DNA of 64,000 bases from a virus. Made by a program: the position numbers and the translations under genes. The first letter of the stretch is position 1, and each line of letters opens with the position of its first letter. Where the stretch lies: positions 1 through 64,000 of IMG/VR virus record IMGVR_UViG_3300034272_001071, one strand, 5' to 3'. Below are positions 38,326-50,641 of this stretch, piece by piece. The notes beneath the pieces were generated by a model. It did no database searches and had not been told where the DNA came from. It saw nothing but the letters and a program-made list of their open reading frames with translations.

Positions 38326-38347
38326 TGTCAGACCGATACGCTACAAT
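38326..38347 (+). promoter_or_regulatory. TGTCAG-N10-TACAAT promoter
   Basis: Exact series spacing. It also shows TTGATA 17 bases upstream of the -10. Drives the 38384 gene (SD AACGAAAGAAG). Confidence 0.75.
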
Positions 38348-38383
38348 TTCACACATAACCTACTAACGAAAGAAGAACAGATA

Positions 38384-38578
38384 ATGATGACTAAATGGGA
38401 TACTATCCAAGCAGATGTAAGCGATGCTTATGTTTATCTTGATGAAGAAGAAGCGTATAACAATGCGCTAAATAATGAAGATGAAGAAGATTTTTTCGGA
38501 TTTTCTAAGGCTATTGAGTTAGACCATCTTACAGATGAAGAATTAGATAATGTCGCTACTATGTTAGGAATAAAATAA
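38384..38578 (+). CDS. Small acidic hypothetical protein
   Basis: A 64-residue protein with a run of Glu/Asp (DEEEAYNNALNNEDEEDF), pI clearly acidic, possibly a DNA mimic or partner protein, but that is speculation. SD AACGAAAGAAG of the shared leader type precedes ATGATG. The first ATG at 38384 is taken. Confidence 0.65.
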   Translation: MMTKWDTIQADVSDAYVYLDEEEAYNNALNNEDEEDFFGFSKAIELDHLTDEELDNVATMLGIK

Positions 38579-38731
38579 ATGACTATCACTTACTCACTAT
38601 GGCAAGGCTCGCAACTACTAAGCGTAGATAACAAGGCTAATAGCGCAGATGAATTGCTAAATGTAATGACCGAACTAAATAAACTAGGTAAAGGATTTAC
38701 CTACAATGTAAGAGGAGTAGAGGTAAAATAA
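38579..38731 (+). CDS. Small hypothetical protein
   Basis: A 50-residue protein starting at the base after the upstream stop and sharing its own stop with the next ATG (TAATG). Sequence SLWQGSQLLSVDNKANS...TYNVRGVEV looks like a small alpha/beta unit. Function unknown. Confidence 0.6.
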   Translation: MTITYSLWQGSQLLSVDNKANSADELLNVMTELNKLGKGFTYNVRGVEVK

Positions 38732-38886
38732 TGATACCTAACGGATTAGAGTTATACATAACAAGCGACTACGGATTAGAGTTAGATAGTTTTCTAGGCG
38801 CTATCTATTTACCTTGGCACACTATTGCTATTATCACCGCCCTAGTAATCGGCTATAAGATTTATAAGAGAAAGAAGAATAAGTAA
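38731..38886 (+). CDS. Small membrane protein
   Basis: A 51-residue protein with one hydrophobic helix (WHTIAIITALVIGYKIY) followed by a positive tail (KRKKNK), predicted to have an outside N-terminus and inside C-terminus. Coupled to both neighbours by overlap. Confidence 0.65.
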   Translation: MIPNGLELYITSDYGLELDSFLGAIYLPWHTIAIITALVIGYKIYKRKKNK

Positions 38887-39014
38887 TGACTACTAACCGC
38901 ATACTAACTACGCTAGTGCAATTAGGTATTGGGATCCCCGCCCTATATATGGCTCGCCTAATGTGGGCAGACCTAAAAGAAGATGTGAGGGAAGTCATAA
39001 AAGATTTTCGCTAA
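38886..39014 (+). CDS. Small, possibly membrane-associated protein
   Basis: A 42-residue protein with an amphipathic/hydrophobic N-terminal half (ILTTLVQLGIGIPALYMARLMW) and a charged tail. Last gene of the overlapped set. Confidence 0.55.
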   Translation: MTTNRILTTLVQLGIGIPALYMARLMWADLKEDVREVIKDFR

Positions 39015-39146
39015 ATAACGGCGTGTCGGCTTGACAAAATCAAGCTGGCCCGCAAAGGCACGGGGTCGGGCGTGTCGTTACGGATTTGTTATAAAAAACC
39101 CTGAATTCTGCGGCGTGTCGATTTGACAGACAAATCGGACATTTTG

Positions 39147-39162
39147 TGTGATGCTTATCACA
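39147..39162. promoter_or_regulatory. CRP-like palindrome 2
   Basis: TGTGATGCTTATCACA, one of two tandem copies 23 bases apart. Confidence 0.7.
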
Positions 39163-39169
39163 TAACTTG

Positions 39170-39185
39170 TGTGATGCTTATCACA
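39170..39185. promoter_or_regulatory. CRP-like palindrome 3
   Basis: TGTGATGCTTATCACA, centred about 83 bases before the expected transcription start. Confidence 0.7.
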
Positions 39186-39232
39186 AAGCCCACGCTCCAA
39201 ATAGTGAGACAAACCCTTGCCAAATTGGAAAA

Positions 39233-39254
39233 TGTCAGTCCGTTCGTGTATAAT
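39233..39254 (+). promoter_or_regulatory. TGTCAG-N10-TATAAT promoter
   Basis: AAAATGTCAG, 10 bases, TATAAT. Drives the 39290 gene; its leader begins with ACAACAAACGAAAG. Confidence 0.8.
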
Positions 39255-39289
39255 TCCATACATAACAACAAACGAAAGAAGGTCTGCCA

Positions 39290-39496
39290 ATGGCTACCAA
39301 ACTATACACAATCGAAAGCCTACTTGTAGGAAAAAACTATCGCTCAAACTCTCGCCACTTTTCAGGCGAAATCGTTTCTGCTGAACCTCGCCCTGAAATT
39401 TACTACGGCGAAAAAACCGAAGCGTATCTAATCGAAATTCGCACGGGCGGTCTGCGAAATAAATTCGCAACAATCGCAGTAAAGGTTGGTGAATAA
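39290..39496 (+). CDS. Small beta-rich hypothetical protein
   Basis: A 68-residue protein: VGKNYRSNSRHFSGEIVSAE, then YLIEIRTGGLRNKFATIAVKVG. The arrangement (G-x-Y/F...G-x-I...) resembles small SH3/KOW-like barrels, as do two later proteins in this region. SD AACGAAAGAAGG. Confidence 0.65.
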   Translation: MATKLYTIESLLVGKNYRSNSRHFSGEIVSAEPRPEIYYGEKTEAYLIEIRTGGLRNKFATIAVKVGE

Positions 39497-39498
39497 TA

Positions 39499-39624
39499 AT
39501 GGGACACATCGAAATTTTTCGCATAAATGAAAATGGTGCTGGCTGGGTAGATTTATCCGAAGCCACTCCAGATGAGTTATTTCAAATCGAAATCGGATTA
39601 CTAAACGAAGGAGCGTTCGAATGA
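39499..39624 (+). CDS. Micro-protein
   Basis: A 41-residue ORF directly after the previous gene; its TGA overlaps the next ATG (ATGA). Charged, no motif. Confidence 0.5.
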   Translation: MGHIEIFRINENGAGWVDLSEATPDELFQIEIGLLNEGAFE

Positions 39625-39743
39625 ACCTAGACGAATTCAAAAAGCACGTTATCGCACAACGTGAAGCAAGCAAGGCGGAAGCCTTGTCAGTCCTATCTGC
39701 TACAATTACCAAAACAAACGAAAGGGAAAACCTAAATGGCTAA
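39621..39743 (+). CDS. Micro-protein carrying an internal promoter
   Basis: A 40-residue helical ORF linked by ATGA to the upstream gene. Its 3' half contains the TGTCAG promoter and SD of the next gene, so the codons TTGTCAGTCCTATCTGCTAC are doubly used. Confidence 0.5.
   Translation: MNLDEFKKHVIAQREASKAEALSVLSATITKTNERENLNG
39685..39706 (+). promoter_or_regulatory. TGTCAG-N10-TACAAT promoter (internal)
   Basis: Lies within the coding sequence of the preceding micro-protein. The SD AACGAAAGGG follows, then the ATG at 39736. Confidence 0.75.
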
Positions 39744-39900
39744 AGTAAAAGAATACATAGAAATAATCGCAGCGAATTGCGATGAGTGCGGTGGTGCTGG
39801 TTTCTTATTTTGGGGAAATGAAAATAACTATGATGTAGAGCCTTGCTCTTGCGTAGATGAAATCTCTGATGAACTAACACTAGATTGGGTAAATAACTAA
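39736..39900 (+). CDS. DnaJ-type zinc-knuckle protein
   Basis: A 54-residue acidic protein with CDECGGAG and CSCVD, resembling half of a DnaJ/ribosomal zinc ribbon. Own internal promoter and shared leader. Confidence 0.6.
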   Translation: MAKVKEYIEIIAANCDECGGAGFLFWGNENNYDVEPCSCVDEISDELTLDWVNN

Positions 39901-40103
39901 TGTATAAACTAACTTGCGCTTATGATAGCAACGCTCCCCACTGGTCTGCCGAATACGAAAACGAATTTGGTGCGTGGGAAAACTTTTTCCGCTTTACCGA
40001 TTGGGGTTCTGCTAATGAATACTCAACTGTAAATTTATTTACACCAACTGGCAAATGCTACACTAAATTATTTTATCGTTCAGGAGAGGTCGTAGTAAAA
40101 TGA
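39900..40103 (+). CDS. Small aromatic-rich hypothetical protein
   Basis: A 67-residue protein with many Trp/Phe/Tyr (HWSAEYENEFGAWENFFRFTDW). Start overlaps the upstream stop by one base. Function unknown. Confidence 0.6.
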   Translation: MYKLTCAYDSNAPHWSAEYENEFGAWENFFRFTDWGSANEYSTVNLFTPTGKCYTKLFYRSGEVVVK

Positions 40104-40291
40104 TGACTAGAAAAGATTACATCGCAACCGCAGAAATTCTAAAGTATGCGAGCAATAAAACTCACCCCGCTTTATTTTCTAAAATCGTAAATGATTTTGC
40201 GGAAATGTTTGCGAAAGATAATGAGCGATTTGATGTAAAAAGATTTCACGAAGCGAGTGGGTATAATGTTCCTAACTTCAGTTCAAGATAA
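40100..40291 (+). CDS. Small helical hypothetical protein
   Basis: A 63-residue protein overlapping its neighbour by four bases (ATGA), helical with alternating charges. Similar short proteins lie in actinophage early regions. Confidence 0.6.
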   Translation: MMTRKDYIATAEILKYASNKTHPALFSKIVNDFAEMFAKDNERFDVKRFHEASGYNVPNFSSR

Positions 40292-40397
40292 AGTAAAACG
40301 CATTCAGGAATTGCGTCGCAGTAATGCGGCGCAACCTGTTCGCAATAAAAAAAAATACACACGCAAGATCAAACATAAAAATAAATTAAATTCTTAA
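40266..40397 (+). CDS. Small basic protein
   Basis: A 43-residue protein, 40 percent Lys/Arg/Asn in its tail (NKKKYTRKIKHKNK), overlapping the preceding gene by 26 bases. Possibly nucleic-acid binding. No clear SD. Confidence 0.4.
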   Translation: MFLTSVQDKVKRIQELRRSNAAQPVRNKKKYTRKIKHKNKLNS

Positions 40398-40540
40398 TTG
40401 TCGACAAATGCCCGCAGAGCTGCGGAGTCGGGCGTGTCGTTACGGGTGTGATATAAAACACCCTAGATTCTGGGGCGTGTTTCAAAAAATGTCAGTGCCC
40501 TATGGTATTATTCTCTTAAATCGAACGAAAGGTCCAACTA
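40398..40540 (+). other. Intergenic regulatory module
   Basis: Hairpin CCGCAG-AG-CTGCGG, two GGCGTGT copies, TTACGG...CCCTAGATTCTG module, an inverted repeat GGGTGT-N8-ACACCC (40444-40463) and a TGTCAG promoter. Confidence 0.6.
40490..40511 (+). promoter_or_regulatory. TGTCAG-N10-TATTAT promoter
   Basis: Series spacing exact. Leader contains AACGAAAGG; drives the 40541 gene. Confidence 0.8.
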
Positions 40541-40750
40541 ATGGAACAAATTACCGTTGCTTGCTTAAACTCTGAAATCTGTGGCTCAACTATGACTTTT
40601 GATAATGAGTCTGATTATGAAGTCTTTGGCGATGACTATATGTGTGCCGAATGTTATGATTCCGAAGAAATGGAATTCTATGAACTAACTGGCTGGTCCG
40701 ATTCCGACGCCCTTGCGTCTGCAGGACACGGAATGGATGAGGATTACTAA
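40541..40750 (+). CDS. Small acidic zinc-site protein
   Basis: A 69-residue protein with C9...C14 and CAEC (residues 34-37), a likely small zinc ribbon, and an acidic tail. SD AACGAAAGG. Confidence 0.65.
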   Translation: MEQITVACLNSEICGSTMTFDNESDYEVFGDDYMCAECYDSEEMEFYELTGWSDSDALASAGHGMDEDY

Positions 40751-40751
40751 T

Positions 40752-41501
40752 ATGTCAGATCTAACCGCTATAATTACCCCTATGAAATTAAAACGTTCAA
40801 ATGATCGAAAGGTGGCTAACCTTGTCACAAAAAATGGAAAGCAAGCAGCAATTGCCAACACGTTTGGCCTACCCGCAGGAAAAGATTTTTCATGTCCTGG
40901 TGCTACGTCTATCTGCGAGACTGTTTGCTATGCAGGCAAGCTTGAAAAGCTATTCCCAGGAGTAAAAACTAATCTTCTTCATAACTGGGAGCTCCTACGT
41001 AATGCAGACATGGACGCCATGTTGCTATTGCTTGATGAGATGATTGTTGACTTTGTCAATGATTGTGAAAAGAAAGAGGCACCTAAGTTATTCCGTATCC
41101 ACTGGGACGGCGATTTCTTTAACGATACCTACGCATATGCGTGGAAGACTATTATCATGAACCACCCAGATATTCAATTCTGGGTTTATACTCGTGTTAA
41201 GTCTGCAGCGCTTATTCTTAAGAATGTATCTAATCTTTCACTTTATTATTCAACGGATGATGAGAATAAAGAGATTGCACACGATTTAAAACTTAATGAC
41301 GGTATACGACTTGCTTACCTTGGCAAAACTTTTGCGCTTACTGAAAACACAATGAAAGAATTAACTGGTAAGCCTGGTGCTAAGTGTCCTGAGAATATGA
41401 AGAGCATTCCACTTATTAGCAATGCAGGGTCCGCATGTGTTTCATGTGGCCTATGTGTCTACGGTAAAGCGGATATTAGATTTAGCGCAACTAAGAAATG
41501 A
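40752..41501 (+). CDS. gp88-family phage protein
   Basis: About 249 residues of the family named after mycobacteriophage gene product 88. Visible marks: FSCPGATSICETVCYAG near residue 50, FRIHWDGDFFNDTYAYAW near 115, FWVYTRVKS near 140, and a late Cys cluster (CPENMK, CVSCGLCVYGK). The Cys groups suggest a metal or Fe-S centre. Function unknown. Two starts are plausible: ATG 40752, or ATG 40782 (MKLKRSND), which lies seven bases after an internal TGTCAG-N10-TATAAT and would be leaderless. Confidence 0.75.
   Translation: MSDLTAIITPMKLKRSNDRKVANLVTKNGKQAAIANTFGLPAGKDFSCPGATSICETVCYAGKLEKLFPGVKTNLLHNWELLRNADMDAMLLLLDEMIVDFVNDCEKKEAPKLFRIHWDGDFFNDTYAYAWKTIIMNHPDIQFWVYTRVKSAALILKNVSNLSLYYSTDDENKEIAHDLKLNDGIRLAYLGKTFALTENTMKELTGKPGAKCPENMKSIPLISNAGSACVSCGLCVYGKADIRFSATKK
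40753..40774 (+). promoter_or_regulatory. TGTCAG-N10-TATAAT promoter overlapping the gp88 start
   Basis: The codons for MSDLTAII contain the full promoter. A transcript from it begins at about 40782, an in-frame ATG. Confidence 0.65.
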
Positions 41502-41510
41502 GAAAATAAA

Positions 41511-41636
41511 ATGGCCGAACTAAAGTACTTTAATGCATTAATAAATTCCGTGGTTGGTAATGATGAAGAAAGAAAAACCGCTAAAGAATATTTAGCGGAG
41601 GTGGATCCTGAAGTCTGGGGAGATTCTCTAGACTGA
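41511..41636 (+). CDS. Micro-protein
   Basis: A 41-residue acidic helical ORF nine bases after gp88, SD GAGAAAAT weak. Followed by a terminator hairpin. Confidence 0.5.
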   Translation: MAELKYFNALINSVVGNDEERKTAKEYLAEVDPEVWGDSLD

Positions 41637-41640
41637 AGGG

Positions 41641-41660
41641 CCCGCAACACTGCGGGGTTT
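41641..41660 (+). terminator. Intrinsic terminator CCCGCA-N4-TGCGGG
   Basis: Six-base-pair GC stem then GTTTT. It begins five bases after the upstream stop and starts an intergenic module repeated at 43996. Confidence 0.7.
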
Positions 41661-41690
41661 TCCACAGGCTTACGGCTTAGTTGTGGATAA
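41658..41690. repeat. DnaA-box-like inverted pair in intergenic module
   Basis: TTTTCCACA (41658-41666) and, inverted, TTATCCACA (41682-41690, read on the minus strand), flanking GGCTTACGGCTTAG. A perfect DnaA-box consensus in one arm. Confidence 0.55.
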
Positions 41691-41700
41691 CCCTGAATTT

Positions 41701-41716
41701 TGTGAGAAAACTCACA
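41701..41716. promoter_or_regulatory. CRP-like palindrome 4
   Basis: TGTGAGAAAACTCACA, about 70 bases upstream of the expected start of the next transcript. Confidence 0.65.
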
Positions 41717-41749
41717 AAAGCTGCGACACGCCGAGGATGTGTTAGCAAA

Positions 41750-41771
41750 TGTCGGTGGCCTAGTGTAAAAT
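41750..41771 (+). promoter_or_regulatory. TGTCGG-N10-TAAAAT promoter
   Basis: One mismatch in the upstream element (TGTCGG), spacing kept. Leader AACGAAAGG; drives the 41801 gene. Confidence 0.7.
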
Positions 41772-41800
41772 ACCATTATTCCAACAACGAAAGGTAACAA

Positions 41801-42025
41801 ATGTCTAATCTAATGAAGGTTCCACACACAGTAGTTTTTGAGGCAATTATTGACTTGGATAAAATCCCTGCAAATCTATTGCCTGCACTAATCAACCTAC
41901 CACAATCTGAAATTGAAAAGATGTGCAAGGGTGCAACCATTCACGCTCTTGGTATGTCTAATACTCTTGAAGTAGCAAATGAAAATAACACTTGGGCAGA
42001 ATTGACAGTAAAGGGAAATATCTAA
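41801..42025 (+). CDS. Small hypothetical protein
   Basis: A 74-residue protein: a beta strand start (HTVVFEAIIDLDKIP), helical middle, beta end. Shared leader SD AACGAAAGG. Stop overlaps next ATG by one base. Confidence 0.65.
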   Translation: MSNLMKVPHTVVFEAIIDLDKIPANLLPALINLPQSEIEKMCKGATIHALGMSNTLEVANENNTWAELTVKGNI

Positions 42026-42300
42026 TGCTATCAACTGCTATTGAAATCTTAGACGCAACCAAATCAAGTATCTTTGACGAGGACATAATGGGATTAGCGG
42101 GTGAACTGCACACACGCAGAAATGAACTATCAGATGAAATCTATGCTAAGTATTTATTTATGTATTCATCGGCTCTATCTGCTAAGGTTGCCGATAGCAT
42201 AACTAAAATCCTATTGACCGAGCAAGAAATGTCAGACCTTGTTGCTACAATAGATGAAATGGACGACCTATCAGAAACTATCTTAGAGGAGAACGAATAA
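42025..42300 (+). CDS. Small helical hypothetical protein
   Basis: A 91-residue helical acidic protein beginning at ATG 42025 (TAATG overlap). An internal TGTCAG promoter lies in codons 69-76 and may transcribe the next gene separately. Confidence 0.65.
   Translation: MLSTAIEILDATKSSIFDEDIMGLAGELHTRRNELSDEIYAKYLFMYSSALSAKVADSITKILLTEQEMSDLVATIDEMDDLSETILEENE
42230..42251 (+). promoter_or_regulatory. TGTCAG-N10-TACAAT promoter (internal)
   Basis: Inside the 42025 gene, 50 bases before the 42301 start. The leader of the next gene uses GAGGAG rather than AACGAAAGG. Confidence 0.65.
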
Positions 42301-42579
42301 ATGGGAAGCACTTTCGCAACTGAACTAGCCGATAACGACTTATTAGGCTTAGACTTAGAAACACAAATTGGTATTCACTTATCAAGTAATCACTATCCAC
42401 CCGTTCCCCGCTCAATGGTGCAACCTTGCATAGATGCTATTGACGCATACTATGAGGAGGACTATCAGCGTCTTATTGACCTACCTGCACCGATTACTTG
42501 GCGGGATCAAAATACTGCACCTGCATCGGCTATCATCGAGGCTCACCACTTAGATGCGTGGCTTCCTGAGTGTGATTAG
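42301..42579 (+). CDS. Small hypothetical protein
   Basis: A 92-residue acidic protein. SD AGAGGAG 8 bases before the ATG; start directly after the upstream stop. Its stop codon lies inside a CRP-like palindrome. Similar 90-residue Trp/Asp-rich proteins occur in actinophages; function unknown. Confidence 0.65.
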   Translation: MGSTFATELADNDLLGLDLETQIGIHLSSNHYPPVPRSMVQPCIDAIDAYYEEDYQRLIDLPAPITWRDQNTAPASAIIEAHHLDAWLPECD

Positions 42580-42586
42580 TATCACA
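42571..42586. promoter_or_regulatory. CRP-like palindrome 5
   Basis: TGTGATTAGTATCACA overlapping the stop codon of the preceding gene, centred about 73 bases before the next transcription start. Confidence 0.7.
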
Positions 42587-42623
42587 CTATAACCTTCTCA
42601 AATAATGAGATTAGGGTGGAAAA

Positions 42624-42645
42624 TGTCAGACCCACCCTGTATAAT
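42624..42645 (+). promoter_or_regulatory. TGTCAG-N10-TATAAT promoter
   Basis: GAAAATGTCAG, then TATAAT. The leader CCTAACGAAAGGAAAC is only about 20 bases long. Confidence 0.8.
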
Positions 42646-42670
42646 AAACCACCTAACGAAAGGAAACAAA

Positions 42671-42820
42671 ATGACAACACTAGAAATCGGAAGCACGATT
42701 ACAACTGCTAAGTCAGGCGTAGTCGGAGTAATCAAGGCAGTAGATAACCACCCTAGCGGAGTGGCAAGAGTGCTACTTGATGTAAATGGCTCAGAGCGTT
42801 GGACTTCAGTAGAAGTCTAA
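42671..42820 (+). CDS. Small SH3/KOW-like protein A
   Basis: A 49-residue protein. GSTITTAKSGVVGVIKAVDN...ARVLLDVNGSERWTSVEV is paralogous to the 43444 product (GDVFTTGKSGITGTISEI...TKLRLDTGAGMRYAMVKI). Both look like five-stranded barrels that could bind nucleic acid or a protein partner. Confidence 0.65.
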   Translation: MTTLEIGSTITTAKSGVVGVIKAVDNHPSGVARVLLDVNGSERWTSVEV

Positions 42821-42900
42821 CAAACTGAACGAAACAGGGGCAGTTTAGAGAGTGTTCTCGCCCAATGTCGTAAGTAAGAACTCTCACCCTTAGGGGTAAA

Positions 42901-42922
42901 TGTCAGACCCCTATGTTATACT
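42901..42922 (+). promoter_or_regulatory. TGTCAG-N10-TATACT promoter
   Basis: Series spacing exact. Leader GAACGAAAGGG; drives 42956. Confidence 0.8.
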
Positions 42923-42955
42923 AATCAACCAACCAACCGAACGAAAGGGAAATAA

Positions 42956-43378
42956 ATGAGTAGAGGAAAATCTATTAGCGTGAAAATCGCTACACCTAAA
43001 GTAATCAAGGCACTAGAAACACGCCTTGCTGAGTTAGAAAAGAACTATAAGGCACAAGGCGAAAACGAAGCAAAGCACACTAAGGCGCACGAAGCGTGGA
43101 AAAAGGAAGTAGGCAAGTGGGCTATTGCTAACTTCTCAAAGGCTGAGAACCTTCGCACAAACTATCGCTCTTGGAACAACACTCTCAATGTTGATTTTGA
43201 CATCATCACTAAAGAGGGAACTTTTCCTAAAGAACCTGAAAAGGATTTTGAGGTTGTTCATACTCACCAATACAATGAAATGAAAGAGGAAATCACGAAC
43301 GCAATTCGTATCCTCAAAATGACAGATGAGGAAGTTGTAAATACTTCCACATACAACGCTATTGCTCGTTATCTATAA
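42956..43378 (+). CDS. Coiled-coil hypothetical protein
   Basis: A 140-residue, Lys/Glu-rich helical protein; residues 15-60 and 95-125 likely form coiled coils. Own TGTCAG promoter and shared SD. Followed by a hairpin also found after the DUF932 gene. Confidence 0.65.
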   Translation: MSRGKSISVKIATPKVIKALETRLAELEKNYKAQGENEAKHTKAHEAWKKEVGKWAIANFSKAENLRTNYRSWNNTLNVDFDIITKEGTFPKEPEKDFEVVHTHQYNEMKEEITNAIRILKMTDEEVVNTSTYNAIARYL

Positions 43379-43394
43379 ATAACAAGCAACGACC

Positions 43395-43417
43395 TGAGCA
43401 AGTCTAAAAACTGCTCA
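43395..43417 (+). repeat. Recurring 3' hairpin TGAGCA-N11-TGCTCA
   Basis: Six-base inverted repeat with an 11-base A-rich loop. A near-identical copy follows the DUF932 gene at 45177-45199. It lacks a U-tract, so it may be a processing or stability element. Confidence 0.6.
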
Positions 43418-43443
43418 ACCCACCTACTAACGAAAGGAATAAA

Positions 43444-43626
43444 ATGTCTCCAATTCTAGATACCGCTAAGGGTCGCTTCTATCGTAAGGGCGATGTCTTT
43501 ACAACTGGTAAGTCAGGTATTACTGGAACTATCTCAGAGATTATTGCTATCCGCCCTAATCTAACTAAACTAAGATTAGATACAGGCGCAGGTATGCGTT
43601 ATGCTATGGTAAAAATCGGCAAGTAA
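43444..43626 (+). CDS. Small SH3/KOW-like protein B
   Basis: A 60-residue paralogue of the 42671 product (see that entry). SD AACGAAAGGAAT. No TGTCAG promoter is visible directly upstream, so it may be co-transcribed with 42956. Confidence 0.65.
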   Translation: MSPILDTAKGRFYRKGDVFTTGKSGITGTISEIIAIRPNLTKLRLDTGAGMRYAMVKIGK

Positions 43627-43633
43627 TACAAAT

Positions 43634-43658
43634 GGGGGCTAGACAAAATCTAGCCCCC
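43634..43658. repeat. Perfect 10-bp inverted repeat before a promoter -10
   Basis: GGGGGCTAGA-CAAAA-TCTAGCCCCC, then TATAAT five bases later. It stands where other promoters carry TGTCAG and could be a terminator of the upstream gene, an operator, or both. Confidence 0.6.
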
Positions 43659-43663
43659 AATGT

Positions 43664-43669
43664 TATAAT
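43664..43669 (+). promoter_or_regulatory. -10 TATAAT of a variant promoter
   Basis: TGTTATAAT with CTAG instead of TCAG in the upstream element. Drives the 43697 gene. Confidence 0.5.
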
Positions 43670-43696
43670 TATTATCCCTACTAACAAAGGAACAAA

Positions 43697-43939
43697 ATGA
43701 AAAACCGTTATCGTGTAGAAATCTATGACGAGAACAAAGCAAATGACTTGACAATCTATTCAGAGCAAGGTGTGGATAAAGAATATCTAACTGAATTAGT
43801 ATTTTCTAATATGCGTAAGTTTGACGGAAACATCAGAGCATATGTTTATGATAATCTAAAAAAGAAAAAGACAACTGCTCTAATTATAAATCGTGAATCT
43901 CTTCCACCAAAATCTGAACTAACTAACTTGCTTGGATAA
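43697..43939 (+). CDS. Small hypothetical protein
   Basis: An 80-residue alpha/beta protein with an alternating charged sequence (YRVEIYDENKANDLTIYSEQ). SD AACAAAGGAAC. Followed by a strong terminator. Function unknown. Confidence 0.65.
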   Translation: MKNRYRVEIYDENKANDLTIYSEQGVDKEYLTELVFSNMRKFDGNIRAYVYDNLKKKKTTALIINRESLPPKSELTNLLG

Positions 43940-43946
43940 TGATCTT

Positions 43947-43986
43947 GGGGCGGGTTGCACACTAATCTAGATGCCCGCCCCATTTC
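43947..43986 (+). terminator. Terminator hairpin GGGGCGGG/CCCGCCCC
   Basis: Eight-base-pair GC stem, 19-base loop, then ATTTCCC. Modest T-run. Confidence 0.6.
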
Positions 43987-43995
43987 CCAAGCTGG

Positions 43996-44040
43996 CCCGC
44001 AGAGCTGCGGGGTTATCCACAGCCTTACGGCTGCCTGTGG
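43996..44040. repeat. Second intergenic module with DnaA-box-like site
   Basis: CCCGCAG-AG-CTGCGGG hairpin, then TTATCCACA (44013-44021) within a hairpin closed by TGTGGA. Same plan as the module at 41641-41690. Confidence 0.6.
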
Positions 44041-44056
44041 AAAACGCCCAAAAATT

Positions 44057-44072
44057 TGTGAGATTACTCACA
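44057..44072. promoter_or_regulatory. CRP-like palindrome 6
   Basis: TGTGAGATTACTCACA, centred about 74 bases before the DUF932 transcription start. Confidence 0.7.
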
Positions 44073-44110
44073 CGGATCAATTCGGACAAATGACTAACTA
44101 ATCTAGACAA

Positions 44111-44132: not shown

Positions 44133-44159
44133 TGCAACTAATCTAACGAAAGGTAAAAA

Positions 44160-45164: not shown

Positions 45165-45176
45165 ATAAAAAAATCC

Positions 45177-45199
45177 TGAGCAAGATTTAAAACTGCTCA
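45177..45199 (+). repeat. Recurring 3' hairpin TGAGCA-N11-TGCTCA, copy 2
   Basis: Same stem and nearly the same loop as the copy at 43395. It lies between DUF932 and tRNA-Asp and may help process the tRNA precursor. Confidence 0.6.
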
Positions 45200-45205
45200 C
45201 CACTT

Positions 45206-45279
45206 GGTCCATTAGCTCAGTTGGTTAGAGCGCTACCCTGTCACGGTAGAGGCCGTCGGTTCAAGTCCGATATGGATCG
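45206..45279 (+). tRNA. tRNA-Asp (GTC)
   Basis: 74 nt. Acceptor GGTCCAT/ATGGATC, anticodon loop CTGTCAC (GTC), T-loop TTCAAGT. It stands alone on the plus strand, co-transcribed with the DUF932 gene. Confidence 0.9.
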
Positions 45280-45383
45280 CTAAGAATGAGATTTGAATTT
45301 CACATAATGAGACGCCCCCAGGGGTAGAGGCCAAATTTTTGTGTTACGGATCACATAAAAAAAGCCCTGAATTCTATTGTAAA

Positions 45384-45405
45384 TGTCAGTGGCCAGGTGT
45401 ACAAT
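45384..45405 (+). promoter_or_regulatory. TGTCAG-N10-TACAAT promoter, leaderless
   Basis: The -10 ends six bases before the ATG at 45412. A near-match to the CRP-like palindrome (TGTGTTACGGATCACA, 45340-45355) lies about 64 bases upstream. Confidence 0.75.
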
Positions 45406-45411
45406 ACTCGC

Positions 45412-46080
45412 ATGACAAAGTATCAGAAATATACATGGGTGTGCACGGGAGACTGTGACGCTTTAATTGAATATACAATTAAAGATGGATATGGATGGCC
45501 AGCGGGTGTGATGGACCTCACATGCCGATGCAATTCCAATTGCACATTATTGTCAGTGGAAGATGCTACAATACCGTATACAGATACACCTATAACAGAA
45601 ACGAAAGGGAATGAAATGGAAACTGCAGAGACAACAATAACAACGGTTCCTGATACATATAACCCAAATCTATTGGTTACCTACAAAGTAATCAAGGGAT
45701 ATTCGGATGCAGAATATGCAACTGATAAGGTTACATCAATTGAGTGGGACCTACACAATGCACGTCAAGCACAGAAGCGTGTCGGAGTATTTGAAGACAA
45801 GATAAACACTGTCAAAGATATTATCGGCGAGGCATATGCTGACTCACAAGACCAAGATACACTTCGTGCAATCGCAGAAGCCCTTGGTATTGAGTTGACT
45901 AGAACAGTCGAGTGGACTGCATCTATCGAGGTTAGCGGAACAATTGAAATTGATTTGCTTTCTGATTATGATACTGATTACGAACTTGAATCAGAGATTA
46001 CAGATGCTATCTATGCCGACTCACACAATGGCAATATTGAAATCCTTGACCAAGAAGTTTGTAATGTGAGGGAAGCATAA
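45412..46080 (+). CDS. Zinc-ribbon fused hypothetical protein with nested start
   Basis: A 222-residue protein. The N-terminal 65 residues hold CTGDC and CRCNSNC, a zinc-ribbon-like unit. The rest (from residue 69) is an acidic domain with beta strands and helices (EWTASIEVSGTIEIDLLSDYDTD in its second half). The ATG at 45412 fits a leaderless transcript. Codons 47-54 contain a second TGTCAG promoter, and ATG 45616 has its own SD. Confidence 0.7.
   Translation: MTKYQKYTWVCTGDCDALIEYTIKDGYGWPAGVMDLTCRCNSNCTLLSVEDATIPYTDTPITETKGNEMETAETTITTVPDTYNPNLLVTYKVIKGYSDAEYATDKVTSIEWDLHNARQAQKRVGVFEDKINTVKDIIGEAYADSQDQDTLRAIAEALGIELTRTVEWTASIEVSGTIEIDLLSDYDTDYELESEITDAIYADSHNGNIEILDQEVCNVREA
45551..45572 (+). 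promoter_or_regulatory. TGTCAG-N10-TACAAT promoter (internal)
   Basis: Inside the 45412 gene. Followed by AACGAAAGGG and the in-frame ATG at 45616. Confidence 0.75.
45616..46080 (+). CDS. Nested in-frame product of the 45412 gene
   Basis: A 154-residue C-terminal form with its own promoter and leader SD (ACGAAAGGGA, 5 bases before the ATG). Two proteins would be made: with and without the zinc ribbon. Alternatively this is the original gene and the zinc-ribbon ORF was fused by loss of a stop. Confidence 0.65.
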   Translation: METAETTITTVPDTYNPNLLVTYKVIKGYSDAEYATDKVTSIEWDLHNARQAQKRVGVFEDKINTVKDIIGEAYADSQDQDTLRAIAEALGIELTRTVEWTASIEVSGTIEIDLLSDYDTDYELESEITDAIYADSHNGNIEILDQEVCNVREA

Positions 46081-46292
46081 TGTATTTTGAGTTGACTGCT
46101 CCTGATAGGCTATCGATGGAGATGGCCTATTGGGATGCTCAGATGATGGGTCTTGACCCACAAGCATTAGCACCGTTGACATTCAACATTGGAACTGGTA
46201 GCATTGAGAAAGTAAGTCGCATTCGAGATAAGTATAATCTAATAGAGAGTTATACATCAGACTACGAACCGACAGGATATACAGGGAGATAA
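46080..46292 (+). CDS. Small hypothetical protein
   Basis: A 70-residue protein sharing one base with the upstream stop. Met-rich helical start (LSMEMAYWDAQMMGLDP). Function unknown. Confidence 0.6.
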   Translation: MYFELTAPDRLSMEMAYWDAQMMGLDPQALAPLTFNIGTGSIEKVSRIRDKYNLIESYTSDYEPTGYTGR

Positions 46293-46293
46293 A

Positions 46294-46449
46294 ATGGATT
46301 ACCAAGATGGTTTTGAAGACGGAGTCAAATTTGCACGAGAGGTTATTGTAACTAATATCCGACTGTGGGCAGAAACATCTGAGGACGGCGCAGCATATGA
46401 TGATATCGCTGACCGCCTAGAATTTGGAACCGTTGACTATGACCTCTGA
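46294..46449 (+). CDS. Small acidic hypothetical protein
   Basis: A 51-residue helical acidic ORF, SD GGGAG 5 bases before the ATG; overlaps the next gene by 11 bases. Confidence 0.6.
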   Translation: MDYQDGFEDGVKFAREVIVTNIRLWAETSEDGAAYDDIADRLEFGTVDYDL

Positions 46450-46648
46450 GGATCTAACTCGCTGGATTGGCTGTGATCAATGTGGCACAGCTCAGGCTAT
46501 GTATCTAATTAAACTAGTAGATGGTGAACTATTCTTTTGTGGCCACCACTACAATAAAAACAAGGATGCCCTTGACAAGGTCTCATTCGAGATGATAGAA
46601 TTAAACAAAAAAGAAGAAGCACCACAACTAACAGAAATGGCGGAATAA
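46439..46648 (+). CDS. DUF7455-like zinc protein
   Basis: A 69-residue protein. LTRWIGCDQCGTAQAMYLIKLVDGELFFCGHHYNKN (quoted in shortened form: CDQCG...FFCGHH) is the short C-x2-C / C-x-H-H zinc motif common in actinobacterial and actinophage small proteins. Role unknown. Confidence 0.7.
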   Translation: MTSEDLTRWIGCDQCGTAQAMYLIKLVDGELFFCGHHYNKNKDALDKVSFEMIELNKKEEAPQLTEMAE

Positions 46649-46649
46649 A

Positions 46650-47054
46650 ATGGGAGACAGAGCAAACTTTGGATTCGTCCAACCTAACGGAAATACAATC
46701 GTCCTATACGGGCACTGGGCTGGACATAATATGCTAGCACAATTGGCAGAGGCAGTATTTAAAGCACGTCCTCGCTGGTCCGACCCAGCATATGCAACAC
46801 GCATTACAATCAGTCAGATGATTAACAATGACTGGAATTCAGAAACTGGATGGGGCCTGCACGTAAACGAAATTGGAGACAATGAGCACAAGGTTGCTAT
46901 TGTAGATTTCGAGCAGCAAACATTTAGTCTTCACGAAGAGGCTCCTCGCAATGACAAAGACAACAAGGTCAATGGGATGAAAAATCAAGCAATCTTTACA
47001 ATGGACCTGAGTAACTTTGTCGAGAAGTATGCGGACGTTGTCATCTCAGTTTAG
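46650..47054 (+). CDS. Hypothetical protein, actinophage type
   Basis: A 134-residue protein beginning MGDRANFGFVQPNGNTIVLYGHWAG, a start seen in many actinophage and host hypothetical proteins, with a beta-rich fold and Trp-containing centre. SD weak; ATG two bases after the upstream stop. Function unknown. Confidence 0.7.
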   Translation: MGDRANFGFVQPNGNTIVLYGHWAGHNMLAQLAEAVFKARPRWSDPAYATRITISQMINNDWNSETGWGLHVNEIGDNEHKVAIVDFEQQTFSLHEEAPRNDKDNKVNGMKNQAIFTMDLSNFVEKYADVVISV

Positions 47055-47069
47055 TTAACTAAGATATGA

Positions 47070-47075
47070 TATAAT
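47070..47075 (+). promoter_or_regulatory. Extended -10 (TGATATAAT) of the small RNA
   Basis: TG-a-TATAAT; predicted start at 47082, the first base of a hairpin. No TGTCAG element. Confidence 0.6.
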
Positions 47076-47081
47076 ATGGAT

Positions 47082-47231
47082 AGGTCCTAGCGGACCTTTT
47101 CATTGAAGTATGGTGCGGCTACCAGGGGTTCCCCCAAGTCGTTAAATAAAGCAGCGTTTACTAAATTCCTTTCGTTCCTGCTAGCAGCCTTACTTATCTT
47201 AAGATCCTTCAGCTTAGCTGGGGGATTTTTT
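47082..47231 (+). ncRNA. Candidate regulatory RNA with anti-leader loop
   Basis: The transcript would open with AGGTCC-TAGC-GGACCT, contain AGGGGTTCCCCC, then a stem AGCAG (47150-47154) / CTGCT (47178-47182) whose 23-base loop displays ATTCCTTTCGTTC (47165-47177). This is the reverse complement of the leader GAACGAAAGGAAT shared by about a dozen genes here. It ends with an intrinsic terminator. No ORF follows the only possible starts. Function as an anti-Shine-Dalgarno regulator is inferred. Confidence 0.6.
47204..47231 (+). terminator. Intrinsic terminator of the small RNA
   Basis: ATCC-CAGC/GCTG-GGAT stem with a short loop, then TTTTTT. Confidence 0.8.
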
Positions 47232-47351
47232 GTTTGGCCCCCAAAAGCGTGAGGGTATCATATGCTATTTACGGATGTCAATATAAATCCCTGGAAATTT
47301 CAGTATTTGAGATCAATGTGGTGTAAAACACACCCATATTGCATAGACAAA

Positions 47352-47373
47352 TGTCAGTGGTCTAATATATAAT
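47352..47373 (+). promoter_or_regulatory. TGTCAG-N10-TATAAT promoter
   Basis: Leader AGCGAAAGGAAAT; drives 47399. Confidence 0.8.
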
Positions 47374-47398
47374 TGGGTTATTAGCGAAAGGAAATAAA

Positions 47399-48190
47399 AT
47401 GCCAAATTGGTGTTATAACACGTTAACTATTCAAGGACCAAAGTCAGAAGTTGATTATATCAAGGATAGACTGAATAAGCCATTTACATTAGCACAAGAG
47501 ACATATGGTATGGGTGATATTAGTTCTTCAGGTTTCCCCACCAAAATTAAACAGGTTACTTATAGTAATCCTGTCTTTGCATTCTTCAATATCCATTCAT
47601 ATAAGGATGAAGGTATTACTGATGAGGAATATGCCTGCCAGCCTTCTCGTGGAGACATAGATATCCAAAATGACCCTGATTGGTTCCGCAAGTCTGTTGA
47701 GTTTGCTAAAACTCAGAAGGATTGGTATTCGTGGAATAACTCTAACTGGGGAACTAAATGGGATGTTGCAGTTCGTGATGAAGAAGAATACTCAAATACA
47801 GAGTTACTTGAATACAAGTCAGAAGGTGATGACAACTGGGTTGTATATAAATATGAGACTGCTTGGTCACCTGCTGTAACTATCTTAACTAAACTAAGTA
47901 ATCTTGTTCCTAACTGCCTGCTCACATTAGAGTATGAGGAAGAAACAGGTTGGGGTGGAGAGTATGAGATTGTTCGTGGTGAGGTTAAAGAGATTCTTTC
48001 ATATGAGAACCGTTGCTATGCTTGCCAGTCTTTTGATTGTGTTGAGTATTGTGAAGATGACTGTGGTGAATTCTGCTCTGAATGTAATGAGGGCTCTTGG
48101 CAGGATGAAAAGGCTATGGCAGAATGTCAGACCCATAGTGTATTATTACCTTTGAAAACCTACACACAAGAGGAGGCACTAAATGGCTAG
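47399..48190 (+). CDS. Api92/DUF1281-like protein with C-terminal zinc cluster
   Basis: A 263-residue protein. MPNWCYNTLTIQG and the following ferredoxin-like beta-alpha pattern are typical of DUF1281/Api92-like proteins found in phages and their hosts. Residues about 203-240 add a Cys-rich part (CYACQSFDCVEYCEDDCGEFC in its core) that could bind two zinc ions. Function unknown. The C-terminal codons contain the promoter of the next gene. Confidence 0.75.
   Translation: MPNWCYNTLTIQGPKSEVDYIKDRLNKPFTLAQETYGMGDISSSGFPTKIKQVTYSNPVFAFFNIHSYKDEGITDEEYACQPSRGDIDIQNDPDWFRKSVEFAKTQKDWYSWNNSNWGTKWDVAVRDEEEYSNTELLEYKSEGDDNWVVYKYETAWSPAVTILTKLSNLVPNCLLTLEYEEETGWGGEYEIVRGEVKEILSYENRCYACQSFDCVEYCEDDCGEFCSECNEGSWQDEKAMAECQTHSVLLPLKTYTQEEALNG
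48125..48146 (+). promoter_or_regulatory. TGTCAG-N10-TATTAT promoter (internal)
   Basis: Within the end of the Api92-like gene. Drives 48183; SD AGAGGAGG. Confidence 0.7.
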
Positions 48191-48401
48191 TTTCTTAGAA
48201 GATGTAAACCAAATGGTAATTGACGCTTGCTATCAAGATATAGCAGAACAATTACTAGAAGATTGGATTAACAGTAATCTTGACGAAGGTCAATATTATG
48301 CAGATAAACAATTTGCTGAAATGTCAGGGGATAAGTTTGTCCAACAAGAATTCAATAAGTTCTATGAACTTAAAGAGGGAGATGAGGATTACTTTGAATA
48401 A
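48183..48401 (+). CDS. Small acidic helical protein
   Basis: A 72-residue protein, SD AGAGGAGG 6 bases before the ATG, overlapping the previous gene by eight bases. Acidic, Gln-rich. Function unknown. Confidence 0.65.
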   Translation: MASFLEDVNQMVIDACYQDIAEQLLEDWINSNLDEGQYYADKQFAEMSGDKFVQQEFNKFYELKEGDEDYFE

Positions 48402-48567
48402 GTATCCATTTGTAATTAGATTAGAAGGTGCTGTAATGGCCAATAATGAAAAGGAAGCACACGAGAAAATTAATCTACACCTAAACGATTTAGGTGATGT
48501 TGATAGCGAAAGATATGATTTAAATTGGCCTGACGTATCTTGGGATATGGAGTATGAACTATGCTAG
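48382..48567 (+). CDS. Small hypothetical protein
   Basis: A 61-residue alpha/beta protein from ATG 48382, SD GAGGGAG 4-6 bases upstream. Overlaps both neighbours. Confidence 0.6.
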   Translation: MRITLNKYPFVIRLEGAVMANNEKEAHEKINLHLNDLGDVDSERYDLNWPDVSWDMEYELC

Positions 48568-48746
48568 GTTATGAAATGGCAGATATCGATAGAATGATTA
48601 ATGCTATACACGATGTTAAGTTATTTTATCTTCGATCCCCGTCCGATTTAATGAACAAGGACCCACTGGTAAAAGACTTAGAAGACGCTGTCAGCTTTTT
48701 ACAGGGTCTATGGGCAGAGGGGTATTTTGATGGTTACCAAGACTAG
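48561..48746 (+). CDS. Small helical hypothetical protein
   Basis: A 61-residue protein overlapping the previous gene by seven bases. Acidic, helical. Function unknown. Confidence 0.6.
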   Translation: MLGYEMADIDRMINAIHDVKLFYLRSPSDLMNKDPLVKDLEDAVSFLQGLWAEGYFDGYQD

Positions 48747-48918
48747 TAAGTTCTTAGAGTATATGAAACTTCATTTAATTAGTCTTAACCAGGATATGGA
48801 GAAAGACTTGAATGTTGAATCTAAGATAAACATCCAGGGACAAATTATGGCAACCGAGCATTTATTGTCAGTGGCTACTGATATAATGAACTCTTCTAAC
48901 GAAAGGGTATATGGATGA
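48730..48918 (+). CDS. Small helical hypothetical protein with internal promoter
   Basis: A 62-residue protein from ATG 48730. Its last 18 codons contain the next TGTCAG promoter and shared SD. Confidence 0.6.
   Translation: MVTKTSKFLEYMKLHLISLNQDMEKDLNVESKINIQGQIMATEHLLSVATDIMNSSNERVYG
48866..48887 (+). promoter_or_regulatory. TGTCAG-N10-TATAAT promoter (internal)
   Basis: Inside the 48730 gene; leader AACGAAAGGG then ATG 48915. Confidence 0.75.
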
Positions 48919-49079
48919 AACTATCATCAGATGTAAAGGAAGACCTTCAAGACCAAGCCGACCAAATTATCTATTTTGAATCTGCTATGTCTAGCGAAAA
49001 TAAAGCAAGCAAAGCGGTATATCAGCGTCTTGTTGAAATATATAAGGTTGCATATGAGGCAGGAGTTAATAGTAAATGA
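48915..49079 (+). CDS. Small helical hypothetical protein
   Basis: A 54-residue protein with AACGAAAGGG upstream. Linked to the next gene by ATGA. Confidence 0.6.
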   Translation: MKLSSDVKEDLQDQADQIIYFESAMSSENKASKAVYQRLVEIYKVAYEAGVNSK

Positions 49080-49348
49080 ATATTGAAGTTGTTGGGCTTC
49101 CGCCCCACCTGCAACGAATGGTCAATGCAGGTGTTACTGGATTAGATATAATGCACGGGGAACTTAAAAACCTAATGCTAATCGCTGAACAAGAACTAAC
49201 TAATGCCCAACAGATTGAAGAAGAATCAGAAGAGGCAATGGATTCTATGGAGCGAAAGTATTGGGAGGGTGTCCTCGATACATATACAGAACTATATAAA
49301 CTAACTTATGATTTATCTTTTGTGATTGGAGCACGGGATGAAGCCTGA
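49076..49348 (+). CDS. Helical hypothetical protein
   Basis: A 90-residue acidic helical protein (EQELTNAQQIEEESEEAMDSM part), likely a coiled coil. Overlaps both neighbours. Confidence 0.6.
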   Translation: MNIEVVGLPPHLQRMVNAGVTGLDIMHGELKNLMLIAEQELTNAQQIEEESEEAMDSMERKYWEGVLDTYTELYKLTYDLSFVIGARDEA

Positions 49349-49652
49349 AGACAAAGATAAACTAAACAAATGTTTAGAGATTCTAGACACAACGGACCTA
49401 GGCCTATCAATGGTTTGGCTATGGACGTGGTCCACAATCAACAACATCTTAGATGATGAAACCTATAAGGCAAAGGTTACCCAAGATCAAATGTGGGACA
49501 ACCTCTGTGAGGCTGTATCGGCTGGCCACGGGTTCTCTTTAGAATACGGGGCAGAACAGCACCAAGACGACGTCCTTGAATGGATGACTAATCGTGACTA
49601 CATTGTGGATACAATGTGGGAAGAAGAAGAGGATGAAGATGAAGACAACTGA
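49338..49652 (+). CDS. Acidic hypothetical protein
   Basis: A 104-residue protein from ATG 49338 with a Glu/Asp tail (EEEEDEDEDN). Trp-rich middle (MVWLWTWSTI). Function unknown. Confidence 0.6.
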   Translation: MKPEDKDKLNKCLEILDTTDLGLSMVWLWTWSTINNILDDETYKAKVTQDQMWDNLCEAVSAGHGFSLEYGAEQHQDDVLEWMTNRDYIVDTMWEEEEDEDEDN

Positions 49653-49779
49653 CAAATATGTGGATACCGTGCTAGCGGAAGCGCAGCGCTTACTATGGGG
49701 CGGGTCCGAAACAGAAAACATTGAAGCACATAATCTCATTGCTAAACTAATTAAAGATAGACTAGGCAACGATGAGTAA
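49639..49779 (+). CDS. Micro-protein
   Basis: A 46-residue helical ORF from ATG 49639, overlapping the upstream acidic tail and next gene. Function unknown. Confidence 0.55.
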   Translation: MKTTDKYVDTVLAEAQRLLWGGSETENIEAHNLIAKLIKDRLGNDE

Positions 49780-49924
49780 ATACAAAGTTAAGATAGAGAT
49801 AGTGGGAGGAGTCCCATATATCCTTGAATGCCCTCCAGAAGTTGATGTTGAGATTACACAAGTTAATCATTGGCAGCGCTGGAAGGAACAGCAAAAGTTG
49901 GCCAAAGAGAAAGGGACAAAATGA
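49772..49924 (+). CDS. Micro-protein
   Basis: A 50-residue ORF (VKIEIVGGVPYILECPPEVD start) ending in a charged helix; overlaps next ATG (ATGA). Function unknown. Confidence 0.55.
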   Translation: MSKYKVKIEIVGGVPYILECPPEVDVEITQVNHWQRWKEQQKLAKEKGTK

Positions 49925-50148
49925 ACGGTTATGAGCCAAGCTTAGAAATCCTGGAAGTTAATTACGGTTGCTCTCCTGGAGGAGTCGATATGTTTGAGGT
50001 GTATGATAAATCTGATATACCTTTAGATGTCCCAATATATGAGACAGAGTCATTGACAAAAGCGGTGAAATATTGTTATAATCTAGGTAAGGACTTTACT
50101 GTTAGAACATTAGCGGAATGGGAGAGTAGAGAGCTTGCCAGCTTATAG
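49921..50148 (+). CDS. Small acidic hypothetical protein
   Basis: A 75-residue protein from ATG 49921, coupled to both neighbours. Beta-rich start then a helix. Function unknown. Confidence 0.6.
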   Translation: MNGYEPSLEILEVNYGCSPGGVDMFEVYDKSDIPLDVPIYETESLTKAVKYCYNLGKDFTVRTLAEWESRELASL

Positions 50149-50335
50149 AGTATTTGGAAATAAGTATCAGAACTATTATACAATCATTGAGGCTGCCGAT
50201 CAATTTGAGGCAGTTGATTTAGCCAATGCATTACCTGAGACAGAATGGGATTCCATTCCAACAGATGATGTGATCGAAGCTACAGATGTGTATCTAAACG
50301 AAGATACATCATTAGATCTACAACTTAATATATAA
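50135..50335 (+). CDS. Small hypothetical protein, TTG start
   Basis: A 66-residue protein (YRVFGNKYQNYYTIIEAADQFEA core) whose only upstream start is TTG at 50135, with GAGAGAG ahead. Overlaps the preceding gene. Confidence 0.55.
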   Translation: MPAYRVFGNKYQNYYTIIEAADQFEAVDLANALPETEWDSIPTDDVIEATDVYLNEDTSLDLQLNI

Positions 50336-50374
50336 GGCGGGACGTAGGGGCTGATCAAAGCTCTTACGGGGGTA

Positions 50375-50403
50375 TTTACAAATTCGTCGATATCCGATAT
50401 AAT
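50375..50403 (+). promoter_or_regulatory. Standard promoter of the Lsr2-like gene
   Basis: TTTACA, 17-base spacer, TATAAT, without TGTCAG. The leader carries GAAAGGGG. Confidence 0.65.
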
Positions 50404-50435
50404 AAATAAAACATCTCTTGAAAGGGGATAAACAA

Positions 50436-50582
50436 ATGGCAACAAAGCGTGAATATCTAAAGTCACAAGGAATTACTGTGGGTAAGCGTGGCCGCTTCTC
50501 AGCTGCCGCTGTAAAGGCAATTGCGGATGCTCAGACAAGTGGGATGACATTCGAAGCAGAAAAGCCACAGGCAAAGAAGTAA
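50436..50582 (+). CDS. Lsr2-like DNA-binding domain protein
   Basis: A 48-residue protein resembling the C-terminal DNA-binding domain of actinobacterial Lsr2. REYLKSQGITVGKRGRFSAAAVKAIADA aligns (from memory) with the two helices around the RGR minor-groove loop of Lsr2; here it is KRGR. The dimerisation domain is missing, so it could bind AT-rich DNA as a monomer or compete with host Lsr2. Own sigma-70-type promoter, SD GAAAGGGG. Confidence 0.6.
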   Translation: MATKREYLKSQGITVGKRGRFSAAAVKAIADAQTSGMTFEAEKPQAKK

Positions 50583-50619
50583 GCTGTCCAGTAGGTGGAC
50601 AATCGGGGGGCTGGCCAAG

Positions 50620-50641
50620 TGTCAGCCCCTCGTGATATAAT
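50620..50641 (+). promoter_or_regulatory. TGTCAG-N10-TATAAT promoter
   Basis: The element is part of an inverted repeat GGGGCTG...CAGCCCC. Leader GACGAAAGG; drives 50662. Confidence 0.75.

Follow-up and report, generated by a model that had tools for sequence, protein, structure and literature searches.

Which protein reads the hexamer TGTCAG that recurs, at a fixed distance from a -10 element and where no -35 element belongs, ahead of a run of small genes in the virus record IMGVR_UViG_3300034272_001071? We address this question for the first 64 kb of that record (hereafter the window); the record itself (G000, 65.7 kb) is probably a fragment, because many array-bearing relatives are 100-120 kb long. 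A sequence-only reading of the window had taken these sites for a phage-specific promoter class served by a phage activator or an altered sigma factor. Here, we argue, with a probability that we put at roughly 80%, that the array consists of promoters of the RecA-NDp (recA P1) type, the consensus of which is actinobacterial, and that these would be read by PafBC, a regulator supplied by the host rather than by the phage.

Anatomy of the Promoters

Searching both strands of the window for TGTCAG-N10-TANNNT returns 16 exact matches, all of them on the plus strand and all between 37898 and 50641, whereas 100 shuffles of the window give 0.61 on average and never more than 4. TGTCAG alone is not enriched (37 occurrences in the window vs 31.1 expected), and the signal therefore lies in the box and the -10 element at their fixed arrangement. 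The sequence-only reading had listed 17 plus-strand sites, and all of its coordinates are right, although the site at 41750 carries TGTCGG rather than TGTCAG; it had also set the site at 37898 apart as atypical, in agreement with the poor -10 hexamer found there (TAGGCT). At 16 of the 17 sites, a ribosome-binding-like sequence (matched against a permissive list of accepted sequences) and a start codon follow 14-43 nt past the predicted +1, the sole exception being 45384, where an ATG (45412) stands exactly at +1.

The same arrangement is found well beyond the window. A logo of 673 distinct sites from 120 related IMG/VR loci reads WWW-TGTCAG-WSS-N4-TG-N-TATAAT, with T, G and G following the box at frequencies of.64,.50 and.43, such that "tg" comes after the box in about half of the sites. 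The spacing is exactly 10, as had been claimed: in these 120 loci, there are 683 matches at spacing 10 vs 48 at the next commonest spacing, and a pattern scan of IMG/VR gave 0 stretches at spacing 11 vs at least 120 with the same pattern at spacing 10. For the box itself, we compared 16 sequences of the clade to which the window belongs: the window itself, 13 contigs of 71-120 kb and stretches of 40 kb from G005 and from G043. Allowing one mismatch at spacing 10 before TA[TC]A[AC]T yields 196 boxes, of which 158 are TGTCAG and 11 TGTCGG, each other hexamer occurring at most 4 times, whereas spacings 8, 9, 11 and 12 yield 18-25 matches each. With the looser -10 pattern TAnnnT, 227 TGTCAG and 24 TGTCGG sites were found, 251 altogether, and the balance between the two boxes varies by phage (8 and 8 among the 16 array sites of the 119.8-kb contig G051; 6 and 4 in G054). 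Two main flanks follow the box in a non-redundant set of 726 sites, TGG (334) and ACC (128), with genomes such as G044 and G045 having nearly TGG only.

Downstream of the -10 element, the sites look like points of transcription initiation. At the predicted +1, placed 7 nt past the -10 element, an A is found in 74% of the TGG-type and 61% of the other sites, and it is preceded by a pyrimidine at -1 in 84% and 73%, respectively. A ribosome-site-like sequence with a start codon lies within 90 nt downstream of 172 of 209 boxed sites in the 16 sequences (median leader 24 nt), as compared to 284 of 2039 control TATAAT hexamers without a box. Moreover, an ATG or GTG opening an open reading frame (ORF) of at least 60 amino acids stands at offset 28 or 29 (that is, at +1 or +2) in 15 of 228 sites, vs 3 at 11 other offsets tested. 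Leaderless mRNAs are therefore predicted, among others for the GP88-family gene (40782 in the window; also in G017, G026 and G005) and for the gene at 45412.

Upstream, 40.6% of the 726 sites have, at normal spacing, a -35-like hexamer (at least 4 of 6 matches to TTGACA), vs 16.0% at a control position, and 52.5% have a TGn element, while 212 sites (29%) have neither, so that the box must help. The polymerase geometry, as read from these elements, is of the sigma-A type, with the box inside the spacer, and 29% of the sites have no other known element to assist the -10. Taken together, this bears out the earlier placing of TGTCAG at -28 to -23, outside the place of a standard -35, and on this evidence the TGTCRG-N10-TAnnnT sites are a real promoter class.

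We also considered that the box might sit in a hairpin or an inverted repeat, which a few window sites had suggested, and rejected this, with complementarity being at chance level over 373 sites; stems of at least 7 were found at 7 of these 373 sites vs about 0.7 expected. Three sites of the window (42624, 42901 and 50620) each fall within or close to an inverted-repeat loop.

Match to an Actinobacterial DNA-Damage Promoter

The promoter class that these sites resemble is RecA-NDp, the consensus of which reportedly goes back to Gamulin and colleagues in 2004. This actinobacterial, RecA-independent DNA-damage promoter is described as tTGTCRgtg-8 nt-TannnT (PMC5656591), which equals the TGTCRG-N10-TAnnnT of the phage sites, and the agreement extends to the R and to the spacing, because TGTCGG is the only common box variant and spacing 10 is dominant. 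Thus, the class is not phage-specific in kind, contrary to the sequence-only reading. PafBC is reported to be a constitutive WYL regulator that is activated by single-stranded DNA (ssDNA) through its WYL domain, acts at -26, and inserts between the sigma factor and the DNA, a mechanism termed sigma adaptation (PMC10693628). Its motif is described as non-palindromic, which the asymmetric phage box fits (PMC6789036), and RecA-NDp is reported to reach beyond mycobacteria (PMC8223512).

In line with this, TGTCRGTG-N8-TAnnnT occurs in 79 of 149 Actinomycetota genomes, several of which lie far above the reversed control (70 vs 2, 52 vs 2, 49 vs 0, 16 vs 0 and 14 vs 0 in single genomes). We therefore rejected the notion that the host phylum does not use the motif: early strict scans gave few matches because their patterns demanded TATAAT (one also ACGAAAGG). 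TGTCAG with a TAWANT pattern likewise gave few matches, in 16 of 396 genomes. The actinobacterium G141 (L382; not the phage's host) has 16 sites, and at 11 of these the longest downstream ORF begins 0-2 nt from the predicted +1. Among the 15 of the 16 ORFs that were scanned, we found RecA (above the cut-off), RecC (a partial match below the cut-off), an ATPase read as RadA, a DEAD helicase, an exonuclease with GIY-YIG, four DUF222 proteins, DUF2397 and a Cas3-like protein, while the single library searched had nothing for the remaining 4. In G298, TGTCAG-N10-TATAAT precedes a metallophosphoesterase read as SbcD-like, and a similar protein, judged by eye, follows a site in G385. As a separate observation, the RecA-NDp site directly ahead of the Cas3-like gene in G141 would put a CRISPR effector under DNA-damage control.

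Distribution in the Clade and Its Cultured Relatives

The array carriers belong to a clade that is uncultured, low in GC and related to Stanwilliamsviridae, with a capsid protein ~60% identical to theirs, and their hosts are probably actinobacteria. The earlier expectation that the motif is conserved in relatives holds within the clade: its 16 sequences compared here have 16, 23, 15, 15, 18, 17, 17, 19, 20, 30, 10, 10, 9, 16, 12 and 4 TGTCRG-N10-TAnnnT sites (9-30 in 15 of the 16), vs a mean of 0-1.75 at wrong spacings, the lowest count, 4, coming from a sequence that covers only the initial 40 kb of G043, of which the full record has 19 sites. The sites stand mostly on one strand and mostly within 10-15 kb, those of G042, G046, G017 and G054 being more scattered. 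At least 10 TGTCAG sites are present in 19 of 40 motif-bearing records, the others, many of which are fragments, having fewer; G063 is a long record (109.8 kb) with only 4 sites. In a wider collection of at least 257 loci found through the motif, 19 of which fall within the reference contigs themselves, 253 have at least 3 distinct regions similar to clade proteins, and 239 have at least 5.

The picture in nine cultured relatives (seven Streptomyces Stanwilliamsviridae and two Rhodococcus phages) is different, with 0-3 TGTCRG-N10-TAnnnT sites vs 1.0-2.75 at wrong spacings, and with 13-51 TTGACA-N17/18-TAnnnT promoters each. The latter pattern occurs 7-17 times in clade sequences (vs 2-7 at wrong spacings) and 51 times (vs 4) in the soil Streptomyces phage Comrade, in which no TGTCRG sites were found. 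The Comrade homologue (108241-109263) of a 334-amino-acid array gene of the window (44160-45164) lies among small genes with TTGACA promoters. As TGTCRG sites are many in the clade and at chance level in these TTGACA-using relatives, the clade has, by this comparison of sequences, swapped one promoter class for another, or overlaid one with the other. In a literature search, no paper contained the whole words TGTCAG, phage and promoter together, and none combined Stanwilliamsviridae with promoter, PafBC together with phages lying outside that search.

Which Protein Reads the Box

Profile searches of 30 motif-bearing phage records, some of them fragments, found a WYL domain in none and sigma70 region 2 in none. 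Sigma region 4 gave only matches below the cut-off, in 10 of the 30 records, with the match in G026 being a 48-amino-acid helix-turn-helix protein. A phage sigma factor as the reader was thus rejected on the absence of region 2 from these records. Two phage helix-turn-helix proteins (161 and 48 amino acids) are poor candidates, because their recognition helices differ between groups that have the same box.

A host protein other than PafBC could in principle read the box, whether ClgR, which PMC5656591 cites as recognizing the P1 motif, or a WYL homodimer resembling SiwR, which also works at -26 (PMC10693628). We consider this unlikely: the conserved -26 triplet of SiwR is given in the latter source as GGA, not as TGTCRG.

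We regard as quite unlikely the proposal of a phage-made activator that would read TGTCAG in the manner of T4 MotA, for which the WhiB protein at 61.7 kb, named by the sequence-only reading, is the sole recognized candidate. WhiB is indeed widespread: in two sets of records it was found in 22 of 39 and in 21 of 40, and among records of at least 80 kb in 24 of 25. It could also be made first, since it has its own TTGACA-type promoter in 12 of 15 genomes. In the window, its gene (61702-62049, minus strand) belongs to a cassette present also in Comrade and has a perfect TTGACA-N18-TATAAT promoter at 62290-62261 (minus strand). The TTGACA-N16-19-TATAAT-like promoters upstream of WhiB have 12 of 12 matches in the window, G019, G022, G026 and G051 and 11 in the rest, a score of 11 arising in 3.5-17.5% of random 800-bp stretches. 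However, Comrade encodes the same WhiB, with the invariant residues including the C-terminal NxHKT and with an 11-match promoter, and yet has no TGTCRG sites. WhiB7 is, furthermore, reported to contact DNA upstream of -35 rather than in the spacer (PMC3905903), and, while WhiB7-type promoters have an AT-rich site just upstream of -35, the box here lies downstream of the -35 position. Under a phage-made activator, the match to RecA-NDp, down to the R and the spacing, would be a coincidence. We have therefore demoted WhiB, and, with neither a WYL domain nor sigma region 2 found in the 30 motif-bearing records and WhiB present also in Comrade, a host reader, namely PafBC, is favored.

It is very unlikely that TGTCAG is read by the host sigma-A RNA polymerase without any activator, or that it is a repressor operator. 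The excess of -35-like hexamers over the control position and the frequency of TGn would agree with such a reading, but bare holoenzyme should not suffice at the 212 of 726 sites that lack both, and the soil relatives use TTGACA promoters instead. Hardly credible, finally, is the reading of the box as a place within the promoter where an antiterminator of the Q or AlpA type loads: a TA..[AC]T hexamer does start at -4 in 11.7% of TGG-type sites, but this pause-like hexamer is found in at most 4% at every start from +1 on, where a Q-type system would have it, the leaders are about 24 nt long or absent, and we know of no Q system with so many sites, even if a Q binding element is likewise described between -35 and -10, and a phage 21 promoter as lacking a -35 (PMC6606751).

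Proposed Mechanism and Points Against It

If, as we infer, the host has PafBC and PafBC acts on these sites, then the constitutive protein, once loaded with ssDNA, would sit on the TGTCRG(tgg) box, from -28 to -20, bridging sigma factor and DNA and seating the housekeeping sigma-A RNA polymerase on a -10 element without a -35 by sigma adaptation. The small co-directional genes, some of them leaderless, would then be expressed under the host's LexA-independent DNA-damage sensor. The ssDNA might come from DNA entry, from breakdown of the host DNA or from replication, and action could set in early in infection or once replication begins, because PafBC pre-exists and needs only ssDNA. Our guess is that the block behind the array would be a host-takeover module. 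The array may also titrate PafBC. Tentatively, and with rather more doubt than belief, we suggest that the host ssDNA sensor could serve as an infection clock and be met by a decoy at the same time, with the whole module fired at once while 9-30 near-consensus sites lure PafBC away from the repair genes of the host; on this view, in going from TTGACA to PafBC-type promoters, a whole gene block would have passed out of housekeeping control and come under a damage sensor.

Several observations weigh against this assignment to PafBC. The report that ClgR, too, recognizes the RecA-NDp motif applies here as well, and about 40% of the sites keep a -35-like hexamer, so that some may fire without an activator. 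In 70 of the 149 Actinomycetota genomes, there is no match to TGTCRGTG-N8-TAnnnT, and the strict scan of genome contigs (TATAAT together with ACGAAAGG) gave 7 matches vs ~12 estimated by chance, none of them obviously from a host. Three low-GC genomes (L386-L388) have TGTCAG-type matches without a long ORF behind them. The ACC that follows TGTCAG in 128 of 726 sites departs from the "gtg" of the consensus, and R is mostly A in the phages and mostly G in the listed actinobacterial sites, a difference that may reflect base composition.

Were the assignment to PafBC correct, the phage would probably be borrowing the host's DNA-damage sensor rather than bringing a switch of its own, and PafBC, which has until now been described as a regulator of repair, would become an infection switch. 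A phage group common in metagenomes (at least 257 stretches) would run a main gene block from a host LexA-independent damage activator, and related phages would differ in the class of promoter that drives one kind of gene block. It would also give a function to TGTCAG arrays, together with a catalogue of 726 non-redundant natural sites.

Layout of the Array in the Window

The array region (37898-51075, plus strand) comprises small co-directional genes behind these promoters, as delimited from ORFs, gene starts and comparison with relatives. Its 17 putative RecA-NDp-like promoters, all on the plus strand, were assigned by pattern match and, unless stated otherwise, a downstream gene start. The first, at 37898-37919, is the atypical one with the weak -10 (gene start 37969). 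TGTCAG-N10-TATAAT is found at 39233-39254, at 40753-40774 (assigned by pattern match, ahead of the gene matching Pfam GP88 with its possible leaderless ATG 40782 at +2), at 42624-42645, at 44111-44132 (the promoter of the conserved gene 44160-45164), at 47352-47373, at 48866-48887 and, as the final promoter of the array, at 50620-50641. The -10 hexamer is TACAAT at 38326-38347, 39685-39706, 42230-42251 and 45384-45405, TATTAT at 40490-40511 and 48125-48146, and TATACT at 42901-42922, while the TGTCGG site at 41750-41771 has TAAAAT. The leaderless arrangement at 45384, where ATG 45412 is +1, has equivalents in G011, G017, G022, G026 and G008, with the ATG at +1 or +2, and the same gene has a second, internal promoter at 45551-45572. 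The sequence-only reading had placed six sites inside upstream coding sequences, of which we count at least five (39685, 42230, 45551, 48125 and 48866), with 39685, 42230, 48125 and 48866 lying within upstream ORFs by the ORF list.

Directly past the final array gene, and ahead of a minus-strand block, is a terminator-like hairpin (51104-51131). Some small array proteins (42671-42820 and 43444-43626 in the window; 6331-6516 in G045) share a motif, KSGVvG..RWT, and look by eye like an SH3/KOW barrel; such proteins occur in most of the array-bearing genomes compared and have no BLAST match in Comrade, and the one from G026 has no Pfam or PHROG match. Outside the array, proteins that by eye resemble 2-oxoglutarate/Fe(II) oxygenases (prolyl-hydroxylase-like) are encoded at 12118-17772 (minus strand), 33642-34793 (plus strand) and 55016-56249 (minus strand), a strikingly large number for one phage.

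Comparison with Known Systems

The closest likeness is to RecA-NDp promoters and PafBC themselves, with which the phage sites share the TGTCRG(tg) box, the fixed 10 bp to TAnnnT, a center near -26, a dispensable -35 element and the frequent start of an ORF at the predicted +1, as seen in the actinobacterium G141. The phage version differs in forming a mostly one-strand array of 9-30 copies in phage genomes, in preceding small genes of unknown function rather than DNA-repair genes, in its R being mostly A (227 of 251 sites) and in the TGTCAG-ACC flank of 18% of sites (128 of 726). Phage promoters tied to LexA and the SOS response likewise couple phage genes to a host DNA-damage signal; they work by loss of a repressor, whereas PafBC is an activator and independent of LexA. 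The TTGACA promoters of soil Stanwilliamsviridae such as Comrade resemble the array in that many promoters precede small one-strand genes, but belong to another class, with TGTCRG at chance level. With T4 middle promoters, which depend on sigma appropriation by MotA and AsiA, the array shares an upstream element in place of the -35, an A/T triplet followed by TG, and TGn at about half of the promoters (PMC2988021), and the MotA-like logic of the sequence-only reading is in this respect apt, even though its alternative of an altered sigma factor finds no counterpart in the 30 records searched for region 2. The T4 MotA box is, however, tolerant, being given as (a/t)3TGCTTtA at 12 +/- 1 bp from the -10 element (PMC2988021), while the phage TGTCRG is nearly invariant, with TGTCAG at exactly 10 bp in the array, and where T4 brings its own reader in MotA, the reader here is probably a protein of the host.

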